This document shows positions 24,083 to 32,008 of a DNA stretch of 51,598 nucleotides, piece by piece (positions within the stretch are counted from its first letter, which is position 1; the number at the start of each line of letters is the position of its first letter). A program made the translations under genes and the position numbers. The notes below the pieces were generated by a model. It did no database searches. It was not told the DNA's origin and was given only the letters and a program-made list of their open reading frames with translations. The stretch covers positions 1-51,598 of the forward strand of contig CALVVR010000006.1 of the NCBI GenBank assembly GCA_944363915.1, written 5' to 3'. The stretch is from an uncultured Bacilli bacterium. GTDB taxonomy: Bacteria; Bacillota_I; Bacilli_A; RF39; UBA660.

Positions 24083-26740
24083 ATGAATAACTTTTTTACA
24101 ATTTGTAGTGTATTTTATAGTATCTTATTAACAATTTTATATTTTAAAAAACCTAGAGTTGTTACTCTAGAAACTAAAATATATTCCTGGTTAGTTTTAT
24201 TTAATTTATTAACTACCATTATTGCCACAAGTTGTTATTATACAATTATGTATCGTGAATATGTTCCGATTTTAAATTTTATTATTTCCAAAACTTTAAT
24301 TGTTTTATATTTTGTTTGGACAACAATGTTTACTGTTTATGTATATATTATAAGTAGTAAAAAAGAAATAAATCTTCAAAGCGTTAAAGGTAAAGAAAAG
24401 ATTGGTAGTTTAATTTTATTAATTTATAATTTTATAATTATTACTTTGATTTATATTCTTCCGCTTTATTATCCTGATTCTAATGTAATATATTCATATG
24501 GACCAAGCGCTAATATCGTTTATATAATTTGTGGAATTTATATGTTTTTTTGGGCAATTAGACTTATCTATAATTATAAAAATTTAAAAAACAAAAAGAA
24601 TTTACCGGTCATTATTTTTATGTTGTTTATGCTTGTATCGATGATTGTTCAAAAATTAATTCCTGGATTATTACTAATAACAGCCACGGAAACTTTTGTT
24701 ACTTTCCTTATGTATTTTACAATTGAAAATCCGGATGTGAAAATGATAAATTCTTTGAATTTAGCTAAAGATACAGCGGAAAAAGCTAATCGTGCTAAAT
24801 CAGATTTCTTATCTAGTATGTCACATGAAATTCGAACCCCACTAAATGCGATAGTTGGTTTTTCTGAATGTATTATTAATGCCGATAGTTTGGAAGAAGC
24901 GAAGGAAAATGCTAGTGATATCGTCAGTGCTTCTAAAACTTTATTAGAAATAGTTAATGGTATTTTAGATATTTCCAAAATTGAAGCTGGTAAATTAGAA
25001 TTAGTTGAATCAGATTATAGTTCTAAAAAATTATTTACCGATGTTATAAAATTAATTCAAGCAAGAATTGGTGATAAACCATTGGAATTTAAAGTTAGTA
25101 TTGCGGAAGATTTACCACCCGTTTTATATGGTGACCAGATGAATGTTAAAAAAATATTGATTAATTTACTTACTAATGCTGTTAAATATACTGATCAAGG
25201 GTTTGTTAGTTTGGATGTTAAATGTGTTCAAACGGATAATGTTTGTCGTTTGATTATATCAGTAAAAGATAGTGGAAGAGGAATTAAACAAGAAGATATC
25301 GGGAAATTATTTACTAAATTTCAAAGAGTTGATGAAGATCGTAACACTACTGTTGAGGGAACTGGTTTAGGTTTAGCAATCACTAAACAATTAGTCGATA
25401 TGATGAATGGTAAAATAATTGTTAATAGTGTGTATAATGAGGGATCAGAATTTAAAGTGGCAATTGATCAAAGATTATCTAAAGAAAAAATTGAAGAAGA
25501 AAAAGAAGAAGTAGATGATTTTAATTTAGATTTAACTAATAAGAAAATATTAATAGTAGATGATAATAAATTAAATTTAAAAGTTGCTCAAAAATTGTTA
25601 GTTAAATATAATCCTATTATCACCACTGCCGAAAGTGGGATGGAATGTTTAAATTTAATTAATAGTGGGCATCGATATGATTTGATTTTATTAGATGATA
25701 TGATGCCGAAAATGCGGGGAACAGAAGTATTAATACGATTAAAGAAAATAGAATGTTTTAATACTCCAGTTGTTGCTTTAACAGCTAATGCGATAAATGG
25801 AATGAAAGAGCAATATTTAAAAGATGGTTTTGATGATTATTTAGCAAAACCAATTGAAAAACCAGAATTATATCGAATTTTAAGAAAATATATTACTAGT
25901 GATAAAGTAGTCAATGAAGAATCACCAAAAGAAGCTCAAAATACCGTATTTCAAAATACAATACTACAAAATGAAATTAAAGAAATTGGTATTAGTTTTA
26001 AAGATTATCACGATAAAAAAGTTTTGATTGTCGATGATAATAAAGTTAACATTACTATTGCTATTAATTTTTTAAAACCATATAATTTTATAATTGAATC
26101 TTGTTTAAGTGGAATGGAATGTTTAAATTTAATTAATAGTGGTAAAACATATGATTTAATGTTTGTCGATATCATGATGCCTGAAATGGATGGAGTTGCA
26201 TTATTAAATAAATTAAAGTTATTTCCTAATTTTAAAACACCTGTTATCGCTTTAACAGCTGATGCCGTCGAAGGCGCTAAAGAGAAATATTTAAGTTGTG
26301 GTTTTGATGGTTATATTGCTAAACCAATCGATAAAAACGAATTAAATAATCTTATCAATAAATTTTTAAATACGAATACTAATAAAAGAAATGTTGATTA
26401 TTTAAAAGCCAATGAGGTTGACATTGATAAGTCTTTAGAATTGTTAGGAGATATTAATACTTATAATGATTTAGTTAAAGAATTTATAAGAACAATTAAA
26501 GATAAAATTAATGATTTGAACCGTTATAAAAATCAAAACGATCTAGCAAATTATGCTATTTTAGTTCATTCATTAAAAAGTGATAGTAGATATTTAGGTT
26601 TTAATAGGTTAGCGGATATTGCTTTACAGCACGAATTAAAAAGTAAAGAAAATGATATAACTTATATTCAAAATAATTTTAATTTATTATTAAATGAAGT
26701 AAAAAAAATTATCGATATAATGAATCAATATATGAATTGA
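24083..26740 (+). CDS. Hybrid sensor histidine kinase with two receiver domains and HPt domain
   Basis: This 885-residue kinase has about seven N-terminal membrane helices (1-215) forming a membrane sensor. A coiled linker (NLAKDTAEKANRAKSDF) leads to the dimerisation domain with phospho-His248 (SMSHEIRTPLN). An ATPase domain follows (NLLTNAVKYT, DSGRGI, GTGLGLAI; about 355-470). Receiver 1 (about 488-605) has Asp538 in LLDDMMP. Receiver 2 (about 645-765) has Asp696 in FVDIMMPEMDG. A C-terminal HPt domain carries His829 in VHSLKSDSRYLG. All phospho-relay residues are present. No response regulator with an output domain is nearby, so the partner is encoded elsewhere. The ATG follows GGTGGA with a -10 TATAAT at 24063-24068. 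Confidence 0.92.
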   Translation: MNNFFTICSVFYSILLTILYFKKPRVVTLETKIYSWLVLFNLLTTIIATSCYYTIMYREYVPILNFIISKTLIVLYFVWTTMFTVYVYIISSKKEINLQSVKGKEKIGSLILLIYNFIIITLIYILPLYYPDSNVIYSYGPSANIVYIICGIYMFFWAIRLIYNYKNLKNKKNLPVIIFMLFMLVSMIVQKLIPGLLLITATETFVTFLMYFTIENPDVKMINSLNLAKDTAEKANRAKSDFLSSMSHEIRTPLNAIVGFSECIINADSLEEAKENASDIVSASKTLLEIVNGILDISKIEAGKLELVESDYSSKKLFTDVIKLIQARIGDKPLEFKVSIAEDLPPVLYGDQMNVKKILINLLTNAVKYTDQGFVSLDVKCVQTDNVCRLIISVKDSGRGIKQEDIGKLFTKFQRVDEDRNTTVEGTGLGLAITKQLVDMMNGKIIVNSVYNEGSEFKVAIDQRLSKEKIEEEKEEVDDFNLDLTNKKILIVDDNKLNLKVAQKLLVKYNPIITTAESGMECLNLINSGHRYDLILLDDMMPKMRGTEVLIRLKKIECFNTPVVALTANAINGMKEQYLKDGFDDYLAKPIEKPELYRILRKYITSDKVVNEESPKEAQNTVFQNTILQNEIKEIGISFKDYHDKKVLIVDDNKVNITIAINFLKPYNFIIESCLSGMECLNLINSGKTYDLMFVDIMMPEMDGVALLNKLKLFPNFKTPVIALTADAVEGAKEKYLSCGFDGYIAKPIDKNELNNLINKFLNTNTNKRNVDYLKANEVDIDKSLELLGDINTYNDLVKEFIRTIKDKINDLNRYKNQNDLANYAILVHSLKSDSRYLGFNRLADIALQHELKSKENDITYIQNNFNLLLNEVKKIIDIMNQYMN

Positions 26741-26764: not shown

Positions 26765-26809
26765 CTGACTTAATAAGTCAGAACATTTTTAATTATTTTA
26801 TGTTATGAT
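26765..26809 (+). promoter_or_regulatory. Putative operator and promoter of the HTH-ABC gene
   Basis: A perfect 7-bp dyad (CTGACTT AAT AAGTCAG, 26765-26781) lies against the expected -35 position of a TATGAT -10 (26804-26809). It is a candidate binding site for the XRE domain of the next gene product. It could alternatively be part of the kinase gene's 3' end, but no T-run follows. Confidence 0.5.
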
Positions 26810-26827
26810 TTAGTTAAGGAGGAATTT

Positions 26828-27805
26828 ATGGATCAGATTAAAATGGGAAAATTTATTAAAGAATTACGTCAAGAAAAAGGTCTTACCCAAAAAGAAATCG
26901 GCGATAAATTAAATATAACAGATAACTCTATTTCTAAATGGGAAAGAGGAATAAATGCACCTGATATTTATCTTTTAGCGCCGTTATCGAAAATATTAGG
27001 AGTAAGTATTAATGAATTATTAAATGGCAAGAGAAATTATAAAAAAAAGAGTAAAAAAAACAATCGTAATAAAATTTTAGAAGTTGAAAATTTAAATAAA
27101 AATTTTAGTAAAAATAAAATATTAAATGATATTAATTTAACGATTTATGAAGGAGATATTGTCGGTTTAATTGGTCCTAATGGGGCTGGTAAAACGACTT
27201 TAATTAAAACGATTTTGAATCTTTATTATCCTAGTAGTGGTGAGATTAAAATATGTGGTTTTAATCTAAAAAATGATTTTGAATTAATAATGGCTAAAAT
27301 TGGTTCTTTAGTTGAAACACCTGATTTTTATCAACATTTATCAGGATTACAAAATTTAAAAATGACAATGATGATGAATAATATAAAAGATTATGAATAT
27401 ATGGAAAAAATAATTAAATTATTAAAATTAAATACGCGAATAAATGATAAAGTAAAAAAATATTCTCTAGGAATGAAACAACGTTTAGCTTTGGCTAATG
27501 CCCTTATTAAAAAACCACAATTTTTAATTTTAGATGAACCAACTAATGGTTTAGATCCTTTAGGAATTAAAGAATTAAGAGATATAATTAAATTTGTTAA
27601 CGAAAAATTTAATACGACAATTTTAATTAGTAGTCATATTTTGCCAGAAATCGAAAATATTTGTGATGAAATTATTATTATTGATAACGGTTATATTATC
27701 GAACAATTAGATATTAGTGATATTAAATATCAGAATATTTCTTTAGAAAAAGAATTTTTAAACAAAACTAGTGGTTCAAAAAGTCAAATTGGTGGTGAAT
27801 TATGA
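26828..27805 (+). CDS. XRE-family HTH domain fused to an ABC transporter ATPase
   Basis: This 325-residue protein joins two domains usually made separately. Residues 1-68 are a Cro/CI-type helix-turn-helix (FIKELRQEKGLTQKEIGDKL, then SISKWERG and ISINELLNG-type ending). A Lys/Asn-rich linker (about 67-80) leads to a complete ABC ATPase: Walker A GPNGAGKTT near 113-121, signature YSLGMKQRL near 216, Walker B FLILDEPTNGLD, and switch His in ISSHI. The ATPase resembles bacitracin- or lantibiotic-type (BcrA/LanF) subunits. The next gene is its ABC-2 permease, overlapping by 4 nt. The fusion suggests that the transporter ATPase also regulates transcription, perhaps of its own operon. AAGGAGG precedes the ATG. 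Confidence 0.93.
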   Translation: MDQIKMGKFIKELRQEKGLTQKEIGDKLNITDNSISKWERGINAPDIYLLAPLSKILGVSINELLNGKRNYKKKSKKNNRNKILEVENLNKNFSKNKILNDINLTIYEGDIVGLIGPNGAGKTTLIKTILNLYYPSSGEIKICGFNLKNDFELIMAKIGSLVETPDFYQHLSGLQNLKMTMMMNNIKDYEYMEKIIKLLKLNTRINDKVKKYSLGMKQRLALANALIKKPQFLILDEPTNGLDPLGIKELRDIIKFVNEKFNTTILISSHILPEIENICDEIIIIDNGYIIEQLDISDIKYQNISLEKEFLNKTSGSKSQIGGEL

Positions 27806-29406
27806 AAATAATAAATTTGATTAAATGTGAATTTATTAAAAATTATAATTTAAAAAATTTACTAATTATTTTAATCACTTTGTTAATATCTACTGTTGCT
27901 ATTAGCAGTTTATGGTTTTTATTTTATGAAGGTTTAGATGATTTTGAAAGTCGTTTTAATGATGGAATAGCATATTCGCAAAATAAATATGAAAGTTATG
28001 AAGTTTTGGATGATTCATTTGAAAAAGAATTTTATTTAAATTATTATCAACAAAGAATTGAAATGTTAGAAAAAAAGAAAACAATCACTAATTATTTTCA
28101 AGAATGTTTTCAAGATAAAGTTTTAAGTGAAATTAATTATTTAGAAAATGAGATATTTGTTTTAGAGCAAATGATTGATAATTTTAATAATCCATATTTT
28201 AAAGAAATAGATGAATATGAAATCGGTATCGATGGCGATGTTTATAATGAATATCAAAGTATTATAAGATCTAATTATTCTGATGATATCGATGAAATGA
28301 AGAAAGTAAAAGAAGAAAAAGAAAAAGTGAAAATTGCATATGAAAATATTTTTAAAGAAAATAAATATTATAAATATATTGAATATTTATTAAAAACTGA
28401 AAGTTTTTCTTCTGAATATCAAACATTTTATGAAAATGTCGTTTCCCAAAAAATAGCTGATGAAAGAGATTATAGGATAATTAGTTTTGAACAACTACAA
28501 CAATTAGAATCATATGTTATTTATAATCAAACAGTAACCAATGATGAATTTAATCAGGATTCATATTTAAAAAATCAATTTTCTAATTATGATAATTATG
28601 TTAAATTTAATGAAAAATATTTAAGTATTATTAAGGAAAAAATAGCAATAATCGATTATAGTATCGAGAATAATATCAAACATGATATTAGTTTTACTAA
28701 CCTAGATTTTTTTGAAATAGAAGAAAAAGAATTAAATTCTAAAATAATTGTTAATCAAATTGGCTATTTATCAATAATTGTTATTATTTTGGTAGTTTTG
28801 ACAAGTGGTAATATCATTACTGGTGAACATTCTAAAAAAACTGAGAAAATACTGTTTACTTATCCGGTCAAAAAGTGGAAAATCCTTTTAAGTAAGTTTT
28901 TATATTTAATTATTCATAGTTATATAATTTGGTTTATAGCTTTAATATTATTGTTGTTATTATCGGGAATAAATTATGGTTTTATTGATTTGTTTACTCC
29001 TAAATTAATTTATAGTTCTAGTGGGGTATTAGAAGTAAATTATCTACTTTATATTATTAAAGAAATATTTATCTGTAGTATTCCGGTAATTAGTTTTTTA
29101 GCTATTCTTTTACTTATTTCAGTTATTTCATTAAATACTACTTTAACAATTGGGATAAGTATCATTTTAGCAATTATCTCACCACTTTTATGGTTATTAA
29201 TTAAATTTAAAATGGAATTTTTGATTTATACACCATTTCCTTATTTTGATTATGGCATTATTTTAAATAATTCTTCATTATTTTTAGGTGCTTTAAAATA
29301 TGTTGATTTTAATAATTATCTTGGCTTAATTATTTCGATAATAACAATTATAATTTGTTATATACTTTCTAATATATTATATATAAAAAGAGATATTAAA
29401 AATTAG
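27802..29406 (+). CDS. ABC-2 type permease with large extracytoplasmic domain
   Basis: This 534-residue membrane protein has TM1 (about 18-40), a ~270-residue extracytoplasmic region (about 41-315) rich in Glu, Lys and Tyr and predicted mainly helical/coiled-coil, and five more membrane helices from about 317. A GNIITGEHSKKTEKILFTYPVKKW segment between TM2 and TM3 is the cytoplasmic coupling region typical of ABC-2 permeases. It is translationally coupled to the HTH-ATPase and is its obvious partner. The architecture resembles export or self-immunity transporters for peptides or membrane-active compounds; the substrate is unknown. No peptide precursor or modification genes are nearby. Confidence 0.88.
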   Translation: MKIINLIKCEFIKNYNLKNLLIILITLLISTVAISSLWFLFYEGLDDFESRFNDGIAYSQNKYESYEVLDDSFEKEFYLNYYQQRIEMLEKKKTITNYFQECFQDKVLSEINYLENEIFVLEQMIDNFNNPYFKEIDEYEIGIDGDVYNEYQSIIRSNYSDDIDEMKKVKEEKEKVKIAYENIFKENKYYKYIEYLLKTESFSSEYQTFYENVVSQKIADERDYRIISFEQLQQLESYVIYNQTVTNDEFNQDSYLKNQFSNYDNYVKFNEKYLSIIKEKIAIIDYSIENNIKHDISFTNLDFFEIEEKELNSKIIVNQIGYLSIIVIILVVLTSGNIITGEHSKKTEKILFTYPVKKWKILLSKFLYLIIHSYIIWFIALILLLLLSGINYGFIDLFTPKLIYSSSGVLEVNYLLYIIKEIFICSIPVISFLAILLLISVISLNTTLTIGISIILAIISPLLWLLIKFKMEFLIYTPFPYFDYGIILNNSSLFLGALKYVDFNNYLGLIISIITIIICYILSNILYIKRDIKN

Positions 29407-29772: not shown

Positions 29773-30291
29773 ATGAAAGAAACAATATATAATTATGATT
29801 ATTTAAAAGATGAAGATATAACTGAAACAGTTATAAGAATGAAAGCCTTAATAATTAATAATAAAAATATAATTTTAGGTAACGAGAATAATATATATCA
29901 ATTTCCTGGAGGACATTTGGAAGAAAATGAAACTTTTGAAGAATGTTTAAAAAGAGAAGTATTGGAAGAAACAGGTATAGAGATTGATAATAATGAAATA
30001 AAAAGACCATTTATGAAAGTTACATATTTAAATAAAGATTGGCCAGAAATCGGGAAAAATAGAAAAGCTGAAATATATTATTATTTAATTGAAACTACTA
30101 AAAATCCTGATATGAGTAAAGTTAACTACACTGAACATGAAAAGCAAGGTAACTTTAAAATTGAATCTATCCCTTTAAATGAATCAATAAAAATTATTGA
30201 AGTTAATATTCCAAAAAATGAAAAAAATAAGGTTATAGCACCAGATATGATAATGGCTATAACAGAATATCTACATCAATGTGAAGAGTAA
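29773..30291 (+). CDS. Nudix hydrolase (first of tandem pair)
   Basis: This 172-residue cytoplasmic hydrolase cleaves a nucleoside diphosphate linked to another group. The Nudix box is intact from residue about 43 (GGHLEENETF, then REVLEETGIEI), giving the metal-binding REXXEE. The N-terminal TIYNYDYLKDEDITETVIRMKALIIN block resembles a known Bacilli Nudix subgroup whose substrate is not established. The protein is about 40% alike by eye to the next gene product, so the pair arose by duplication. GAGGTGAT and an extended -10 precede the ATG. It heads a three-gene unit with the next two genes. Confidence 0.92.
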   Translation: MKETIYNYDYLKDEDITETVIRMKALIINNKNIILGNENNIYQFPGGHLEENETFEECLKREVLEETGIEIDNNEIKRPFMKVTYLNKDWPEIGKNRKAEIYYYLIETTKNPDMSKVNYTEHEKQGNFKIESIPLNESIKIIEVNIPKNEKNKVIAPDMIMAITEYLHQCEE

Positions 30292-30293
30292 AA

Positions 30294-30830
30294 ATGAAGT
30301 TTAAAGAAAAAATATATAACAATGACAATTTAGATAATCAAGATATTGATGAAAAAACAACACGTGCAAGAGCTATTATTATTAACTTTAATAAAAAAAT
30401 ATTGATGTGTTATTCAAATGGCCGTAATCATTATGTATTTCCTGGAGGACATTTAGAAAATGATGAAAACTTAATTGATGGGTTAAAAAGAGAAGTATTA
30501 GAAGAAACTGGAATAGAAATAGAAGAAAAAAACATTATACCTTTTTATTCTATAAAATATTATTGTAAAAATTATCATGGTAGTGGTAAAAATAGATTGG
30601 TTGAAATATATTATTTTTTGGTTTATACTGATTTATTTTATGATGTTTCTAATATAACACTAGATGAAAATGAAAAAAACGAGAAATATGAATGTAGATA
30701 CATCGAAATTAGCAATTTGATGGATGTTTTATTACAAAATAAGCAAGTTACAAAAGAATCAAATAGTTCATTAGATGATACGATTTTAGTATATAAAGAA
30801 TTTTTATTTAAGAACAATTACGGAGAATAA
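30294..30830 (+). CDS. Nudix hydrolase (second of tandem pair)
   Basis: This 178-residue paralogue of the preceding gene product has the Nudix box FPGGHLEND followed by REVLEETGIEI, all metal ligands present. The N-terminus (KEKIYNNDNLDNQDIDE) parallels the first copy, but the region after the box (YYCKNYHGSGKNRLVEIYYF) and the C-terminal 50 residues differ. Retention of two active copies side by side suggests different substrates or a hetero-oligomer. It starts 2 nt after the previous stop, so translation is coupled. Confidence 0.92.
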   Translation: MKFKEKIYNNDNLDNQDIDEKTTRARAIIINFNKKILMCYSNGRNHYVFPGGHLENDENLIDGLKREVLEETGIEIEEKNIIPFYSIKYYCKNYHGSGKNRLVEIYYFLVYTDLFYDVSNITLDENEKNEKYECRYIEISNLMDVLLQNKQVTKESNSSLDDTILVYKEFLFKNNYGE

Positions 30831-30832
30831 AT

Positions 30833-32008
30833 ATGGAAGATTATGATGCTTTTAATGAGATGCAAAATATAAAAAGTAAAAAGTCAATAGCTATTATTGA
30901 AGATGATGAAAATTTTGTGATAGAAAATTTGCTTGATTCAACTTTTGAAATAATGCTAATTAGATTAAGTTATGATTTATCTTGTTTTTCAGATAATTAT
31001 ATAGATAAAACAAAAGCGTTGTTTACATTTTATTATAATGAAAAAAATAGTTATGAAAATGAATTGTTACGCTTGAAGAAACACTTTATTCATTATCAAA
31101 GGAAACCTAGTATTGCATATATACCACATAATAACAAATATTCAAAATTAGAGAAAATGCTAATTGAAATTGGTATAAAATGTGTTTCTAATAAACAGCA
31201 ATTTATTAAAATAATTAATAGTAATAAGCTAATATTTATAGATAGTGATGCGACACTAAAAAAAACAAATGGAACAATTTCTGAAAGAGTAAAAAAAGCT
31301 ATTCAAAAAAATAGAGAAATTGGTAATAAGATTGTTATTAGCACTGCTAGGCCTCGTTATCAAACCCTTGAAGTTATGAGAGAATCTGGAGCTGATAGTA
31401 TTATTGTTTCGTCTAACGGTTCAGAAATTTATGACAGTAATAATAAAAATATTATATTTAATTCATTTGTCGATAATGATGAGATAATTAAATTAGTAGA
31501 ATATGCATATTCATTAGACATTAGATTAATACTGGTTATGGAAGATTATGAGTATGTTACTAAAAATATAAGAAATCCAAATCAAAAATTATTAGACAAA
31601 AATAATTATAAAAATGAATTAGCTAAATGTAATGTTAAACAATGTATGTTTATTGATAAAAAGAGTAACGAAATTTATAAAATGAAAGATATATTATTTC
31701 AAAATGATAAGTTACATATAGTAGATGAAATTAATGAAAATAGTTCATACGAAGAAAAATGGTTTAGTGTAGCTAATTCAAATTGCTCTAAAGGGAATGC
31801 ACTAAGAATTTTGTCGAAATACTTGAATATACCTATCGAAGATACAATAGCAATTGGAAATGACAAAAATGATATTTCTATGTTTGAAGTAGCGGGATTA
31901 AGTGTTGCAGTAGCTAATGCATCTGACAATATAAAAAATAAAGTTGATCATGTTACTTTATCAAATGATGAAGATGGTGTGGCTGTTTTTCTTGAAACAT
32001 TGTTATAA
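30833..32008 (+). CDS. HAD-IIB (Cof-type) phosphatase with unknown N-terminal domain
   Basis: This 391-residue protein ends the Nudix cassette, starting 2 nt after the second Nudix gene. The C-terminal 250 residues are a Cof-like HAD phosphatase: IFIDSDATLK (DxD nucleophile pair, about 139-148), VISTAR (motif II), NCSKGNALRIL (motif III Lys) and AIGNDKNDISMF (motif IV). In motif I the usual DGT Gly is replaced by Ala (DSDAT). The N-terminal ~130 residues, with RKPSIAYIPHNNKYSKLEKMLIEIGIKC, are a separate domain that I cannot assign; the ending faintly resembles a GNAT-type half. It probably dephosphorylates the product of one of the Nudix enzymes, an inference from order only. Confidence 0.85.
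   Translation: MEDYDAFNEMQNIKSKKSIAIIEDDENFVIENLLDSTFEIMLIRLSYDLSCFSDNYIDKTKALFTFYYNEKNSYENELLRLKKHFIHYQRKPSIAYIPHNNKYSKLEKMLIEIGIKCVSNKQQFIKIINSNKLIFIDSDATLKKTNGTISERVKKAIQKNREIGNKIVISTARPRYQTLEVMRESGADSIIVSSNGSEIYDSNNKNIIFNSFVDNDEIIKLVEYAYSLDIRLILVMEDYEYVTKNIRNPNQKLLDKNNYKNELAKCNVKQCMFIDKKSNEIYKMKDILFQNDKLHIVDEINENSSYEEKWFSVANSNCSKGNALRILSKYLNIPIEDTIAIGNDKNDISMFEVAGLSVAVANASDNIKNKVDHVTLSNDEDGVAVFLETLL

Follow-up and report, generated by a model that had tools for sequence, protein, structure and literature searches.

An uncultured Bacilli bacterium encodes a Cro/CI-type helix-turn-helix (HTH) and an ABC exporter ATPase as a single protein, in a two-gene operon which is preceded by a putative operator. 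With a probability of roughly 80%, the exporter operon would regulate itself, its ATPase subunit serving as a local and dedicated transcription factor. Comparison across 26 related genomes indicates that the HTH domain would recognise a site of matching sequence ahead of the operon that encodes it, hence the pump probably governs its own synthesis. The same comparison supports the fusion as a conserved unit, the upstream dyad as its likely cognate operator and local autoregulation as the probable circuit. The window is the whole stretch of 51,598 nucleotides that was analysed, and all coordinates are window positions (Table 1).

Table 1. Coordinates of the fusion gene, its domains, the permease gene and the upstream elements.
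Feature	Position	Strand	Basis
Predicted operator dyad, CTGACTT-AAT-AAGTCAG	26765..26781	.	Read directly; in-register dyads in 26/26 loci; one site in the window's genome
Extended -10, TGT-TATGAT	26801..26809	+	Sequence; predicted promoter
Ribosome binding site, AAGGAGG	26816..26822	+	Sequence
XRE HTH-ABC ATPase fusion gene	26828..27805	+	Single intact ORF, 325 aa; Pfam; 26 genomes
HTH_3 domain, residues 10-64	26855..27019	+	Pfam, model, alignment
Recognition helix, ~residues 32-39 (DNSISKWE)	Within HTH_3 domain	+	Model, alignment
Linker, residues 67-82, short and lysine-rich	27026..27073	+	Model confidence low at residues 72-75
ABC ATPase domain, BcrA/lantibiotic-exporter type, residues 84-302	27077..27733	+	Pfam, NCBIfam, motifs
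ABC-2 permease gene, 534 aa, six predicted transmembrane helices	27802..29406	+	Pfam ABC2_membrane_2, model, fold
Large helical domain between TM1 and TM2, ~residues 44-312, predicted outer	27931..28737	+	Model; predicted topology

A helix-turn-helix and an ABC ATPase in one polypeptide

The earlier note had described one polypeptide with a complete Cro/CI HTH and a complete ABC ATPase, and both Pfam profiles are matched at full length within the open reading frame. The HTH_3 profile is covered from position 1 to 55 of 55 (E = 5.9e-16, 58.7 bits, the cut-off being 23), which identifies an XRE/Cro-CI HTH, and ABC_tran is matched over residues 99-240 (E = 2.5e-32). The ATPase carries Walker A (GPNGAGKTT), the signature (LGMKQR), Walker B with the catalytic glutamate (LILDEP) and the H-loop (SSH); these motifs are nearly invariant in an alignment of 13 members, as expected of an ABC transporter ATPase, and the Q-loop position is an invariant glutamate in the same 13 proteins. 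The best NCBIfam match is TIGR03740, the lantibiotic protection ABC ATPase, with 210.1 bits, below the curated cut-off of 309.75, and the fused ATPase is a relative of this family and not a member as defined.

In the HTH core, T20, Q21, S36-K37-W38-E39, P45 and D46 are invariant or nearly so in the 13 aligned proteins. A loss of the recognition residues across homologues, which the earlier note had named as a ground for abandoning its reading, is thus not seen, and a degenerate HTH was rejected because these residues are conserved like the ATPase motifs. The same holds for a separate ATPase produced from an internal start: there is no in-frame ATG, GTG or TTG between residues 7 and 129, hence such a product is not expected.

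An AlphaFold2 model of the fusion, built with 13 homologues, consists of two well-predicted domains, the HTH having five helices, which are joined by a short linker of low confidence that appears flexible. Three lysines of the linker are nearly invariant in the 13 aligned members and its length is almost constant. The fusion protein contains no membrane segment.

Distribution and origin of the fusion

In the GTDB family to which the window belongs, 15 of 193 genomes, the window's own included, gave matches covering both the HTH and the ATPase. A profile of the HTH-linker-Walker A stretch, searched in 385 genomes of the order, added 11 more, none of them outside this family. The total is thus 26 genomes in 15 genera, which all belong to this one family. 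The distribution is patchy, since two genomes of the window's own genus gave no fusion match at the thresholds used. On plasmids, no match covered 80% of the query.

In the ATPase-domain tree, the 26 fused proteins form a single clade (support 93/93), which adjoins unfused ATPases encoded beside the same kind of permease (in G192, in the second copy of G110 and in G090), and this position points to a single fusion event. Because the same two-gene operon recurs in 26 genomes and its fused ATPases form one clade, the fusion is not an assembly error; the accidental joining of two genes, a further objection raised in advance, does not apply to a frame that is joined in 26 separate genomes. The retention of this frame in 15 genera, with the catalytic motifs intact, suggests that the joining itself may matter.

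The patchy distribution, including the two genomes of the same genus without a match at the thresholds used, and the interrupted ATPase frame of two homologues would suit a reading in which an ordinary exporter ATPase carries an HTH that has lost its function or arose through faulty assembly. However, the HTH residues match the ATPase motifs in conservation, changes in the operator accompany those in the recognition helix (see below) and the joined frame is present in 26 separate genomes, making a dead or artefactual HTH extremely improbable. The interruptions are an in-frame TGA in G176 (L096) and an apparent frameshift in G042 (L102). Operator and permease persist at both loci, which are either pseudogenes or assembly errors.

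The upstream dyad and the promoter

The earlier note had pointed to a perfect dyad as a candidate operator of the fusion gene. Considered at a single locus the dyad is not significant, since about 15% of 150-bp upstream regions, once shuffled, contain one that is equally good. An in-register dyad nevertheless occurs in 26 of 26 fusion loci, centred 53-57 nt before the start codon, a count which is not blind, as the 26 dyads were located with patterns written after the upstream regions had been read. In 22 of the 26 loci the dyad lies 30-31 bp upstream of the -10 hexamer. A less tuned check, in which palindromicity was averaged over all fused loci, gave a peak of 0.62 at offset 31 and roughly 0.2-0.4 elsewhere. 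Hence the dyad, though at chance level alone, is meaningful because its position and sequence are conserved across genera. In the window, its centre (26773) is 31 bp from the first base of the -10 hexamer and at about -43 from the predicted transcription start. This conserved position, together with a sequence that follows the HTH, supports the dyad as the putative operator of the same gene, and does so more strongly than could be judged from the window alone.

A T run follows the dyad in several loci (G142, G085 and G138), as it would if the dyad were the intrinsic terminator of the upstream gene rather than an operator. However, 9 of the 26 loci have a divergently oriented gene as the nearest one upstream, which the dyad therefore cannot terminate, and the T run is absent after the dyad in G025, G088 and G110. 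In addition, the dyad holds a fixed position relative to the downstream -10 and its sequence tracks the HTH of the downstream gene. On the divergent loci, the fixed offset and this tracking, a terminator was rejected as highly unlikely. The missing -35 was also considered as a sign of activation, and was rejected because the fusion genes do not differ in this respect from other genes in the same loci.

Correspondence between the recognition helix and the operator

In 26 of 26 fusion proteins, the operator sequence tracks residue 33, at the start of the recognition helix. With Asn33 (15 proteins), the right half-site ends in GTCA, most sites being TGAC..AATAAGTCA, and the left half is more variable. 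Sites of the form TAGC..AATAAGC.A accompany Thr33 (five proteins), a TGGC..AATAAGCC site accompanies Ser33 (one protein), and Lys33 (five proteins) is found with TATACC..GTATA (TATACC..GGTATA-type) or related CTCTAC sites. On the tree, this covariation corresponds to about three independent pairs, one of them on well-supported branches, and cannot reach significance; hence it has the value of a pattern, short of a significant phylogenetic test. Upstream of two XRE genes whose proteins have a Lys33-type helix and no ABC domain (L129 and L130), an operator of the Lys33 type stands at an identical offset, and this argues for the HTH as the part that determines the site. A fixed operator offset was not seen among XRE paralogues in general, and is limited to some with a Lys33-type helix.

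A single site of the window's type is present in its 1.14-Mb genome. A search of other Asn33 genomes found the AAT-centred site before the fusion gene only, and the few extra matches in other genomes have no AAT centre. The Lys33-type pattern is confined to the fusion locus in G008 and G109, and G042 has one further, looser match. A regulon extending beyond the operon was rejected on the single site in the window's genome and on the few extras elsewhere, which lack the AAT centre.

The permease and its possible cargo

The stop codon of the fusion gene overlaps the permease start as ATGA (27802-27805), and the permease gene is directly 3′ of the fusion gene in 25 of the 26 loci, which bears out the coupling of the two genes that the earlier note had proposed; in G242, the permease was not detected by the motif used. 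The window's permease scores 51.1 bits against ABC2_membrane_2 (curated score 27.2), which identifies it as an ABC-2 permease, and the profile is matched by 16 of 16 permease homologues.

A permease model based on a 16-member alignment has a mean pLDDT of 84. In a fold search with the whole chain, which is dominated by the transmembrane part, it matched NosY (Z 18.9, 246 residues, rmsd 3.5) and PmtD (Z 17.2). The operon thus resembles the PmtCD and NosFY exporters in the transmembrane fold of the permease and in the sequence family of the ATPase, with the difference that the PmtCD and NosFY ATPases have no HTH. In addition, the aligned chains of NosY and PmtD are about half as long as the permease described here, and hence have no counterpart of the large domain that follows its TM1. 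In the model, TM1 and TM2 are separated by a helical domain of approximately 270 residues, which is predicted to lie outside the cell, in keeping with the external domain of this size that had been noticed from the sequence.

By analogy with relatives, the cargo may be a peptide or a lipid-like compound. A search for a cargo peptide gene adjoining the operon gave very short ORFs only, none convincing, and defence-system models returned only generic ATPase and HTH matches.

Neighbouring genes

Upstream of the operon, a single chain of 885 aa (24083-26740) combines HisKA, HATPase, two receiver domains and a C-terminal Hpt, according to Pfam, and constitutes a hybrid histidine kinase. Its gene ends 87 bp upstream of the fusion gene on the same strand, a proximity which the earlier note had pointed out and which could suggest a signalling module similar to the Bce-type transporter-kinase modules. 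However, a conserved promoter separates the two genes, and no such hybrid kinase was seen beside the other fusion loci examined, as a conserved kinase of a Bce-type module would be. The link is not supported, since the kinase is a neighbour in the window only; a joint module is most improbable and the kinase is, judged from gene order, an accidental neighbour.

The conserved unit comprises the two genes and the operator, and the downstream NUDIX and HAD genes are not conserved at the other loci. In the window, these genes form an apparent operon (29773-32008) with two tandem NUDIX hydrolase genes followed, 2 bp on, by a HAD phosphatase gene. The HAD phosphatase has an N-terminal extension of about 130 residues without a Pfam match.

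Related fusions and known systems

Across the class, the XRE module (MNQEKIGKFI...SKWE) recurs in combination with many unrelated C-terminal parts, often membrane segments. Examples are L176 (G000:C13:1-7000; 436 and 4619), L129, L130, L138 and L139, some of which also have an upstream dyad.

Six proteins of about 630-650 aa (L133, L146, L147, L149, L150 and L151), from two other families of the class, combine an XRE HTH with a MacB-type ATPase and an FtsX-like membrane part, and have a short upstream dyad (e.g., TCTACGCTCCGTAGA). Like the fusion described here, they unite an XRE HTH and an ABC ATPase in one chain with a dyad upstream. They differ in that the ATPase is of the MacB type and the FtsX-type membrane part belongs to the same chain and, because the ABC type is different, they represent a separate fusion event. 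These proteins are apparently uncharacterised too.

Regulation linked to a transporter normally involves at least two proteins, and one such regulator, BcrR, is of the XRE type. In the bacitracin resistance system BcrR-BcrAB of Enterococcus faecalis, this one-component regulator locally controls the operon of a BcrA-type ABC exporter; BcrR is a separate, membrane-bound protein, encoded in an independent transcription unit, which senses bacitracin itself (PMC3968067). The operon described here would similarly place a BcrA-type exporter under local control. Unlike BcrR, its HTH is part of the ATPase, there is no membrane segment and the gene would control its own operon. In E. coli, the ABC ATPase subunit MalK takes part in transcription control according to the state of transport, although it has no DNA-binding domain and instead holds a separate activator, MalT, at the membrane (PMC10427625). 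In the fusion, by analogy, such a coupling would lie within one chain. The general logic of transporter-linked control has thus been shown to exist with separate proteins (PMC3968067, PMC10427625). No published account of an XRE HTH-ABC transporter fusion was found in the open-access literature searched, which is weak evidence of absence. The operon would be a variation on a known theme, a locally regulated ABC-2 exporter operon, with the ATPase itself as the putative regulator.

Autoregulation and coupling to transport

Two XRE domains, paired through the ATPase dimer or on the DNA, would bind the single dyad at about -43, and the bound fusion protein would set the expression of both the ATPase and the permease. 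Lambda CI activates PRM with a Cro/CI-type HTH bound near -42/-43 of its own promoter. The predicted site here occupies a similar place on the promoter of its own gene, with the difference that CI is not part of a transporter. By this analogy, a protein at about -43 could activate as CI does at PRM, or could equally block the polymerase. A contact with RNA polymerase is mildly favoured, since the distance of the dyad to the -10 is steadier than its distance to the start codon.

The fusion protein would also assemble with the permease, and this assembly, ATP or the state of the substrate may in turn alter DNA binding. It is plausible that ATP or the state of transport would gate DNA binding. 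In its strongest form, the exporter ATPase dimer would be the DNA-binding dimer, and ATP cycling or permease occupancy would directly switch transcription of the pump without a separate regulator, a tentative proposal to which we give somewhat less than an even chance. The odds stand at about even for a plainer autorepressor or autoactivator, whose DNA binding would be independent of ATP, transport and the permease, the fusion serving only to fix the ratio of regulator to ATPase. The use of a common XRE module of the class, which is joined to many unrelated C-terminal domains, and the apparent flexibility of the linker in the model are consistent with such independence. On the other hand, 15 genera retain the product of one fusion event, its catalytic motifs intact and its linker hardly varying in length, which suggests that the joining may have a role of its own.

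In either case, the motor subunit of a pump carries a DNA-binding domain, and a putative operator can be named in 15 genera. The fusions would offer a naturally occurring set in which HTH and operator specificities are matched, and the question whether ATP hydrolysis or transport acts directly on transcription may become approachable with two genes and one site of 15 bp.
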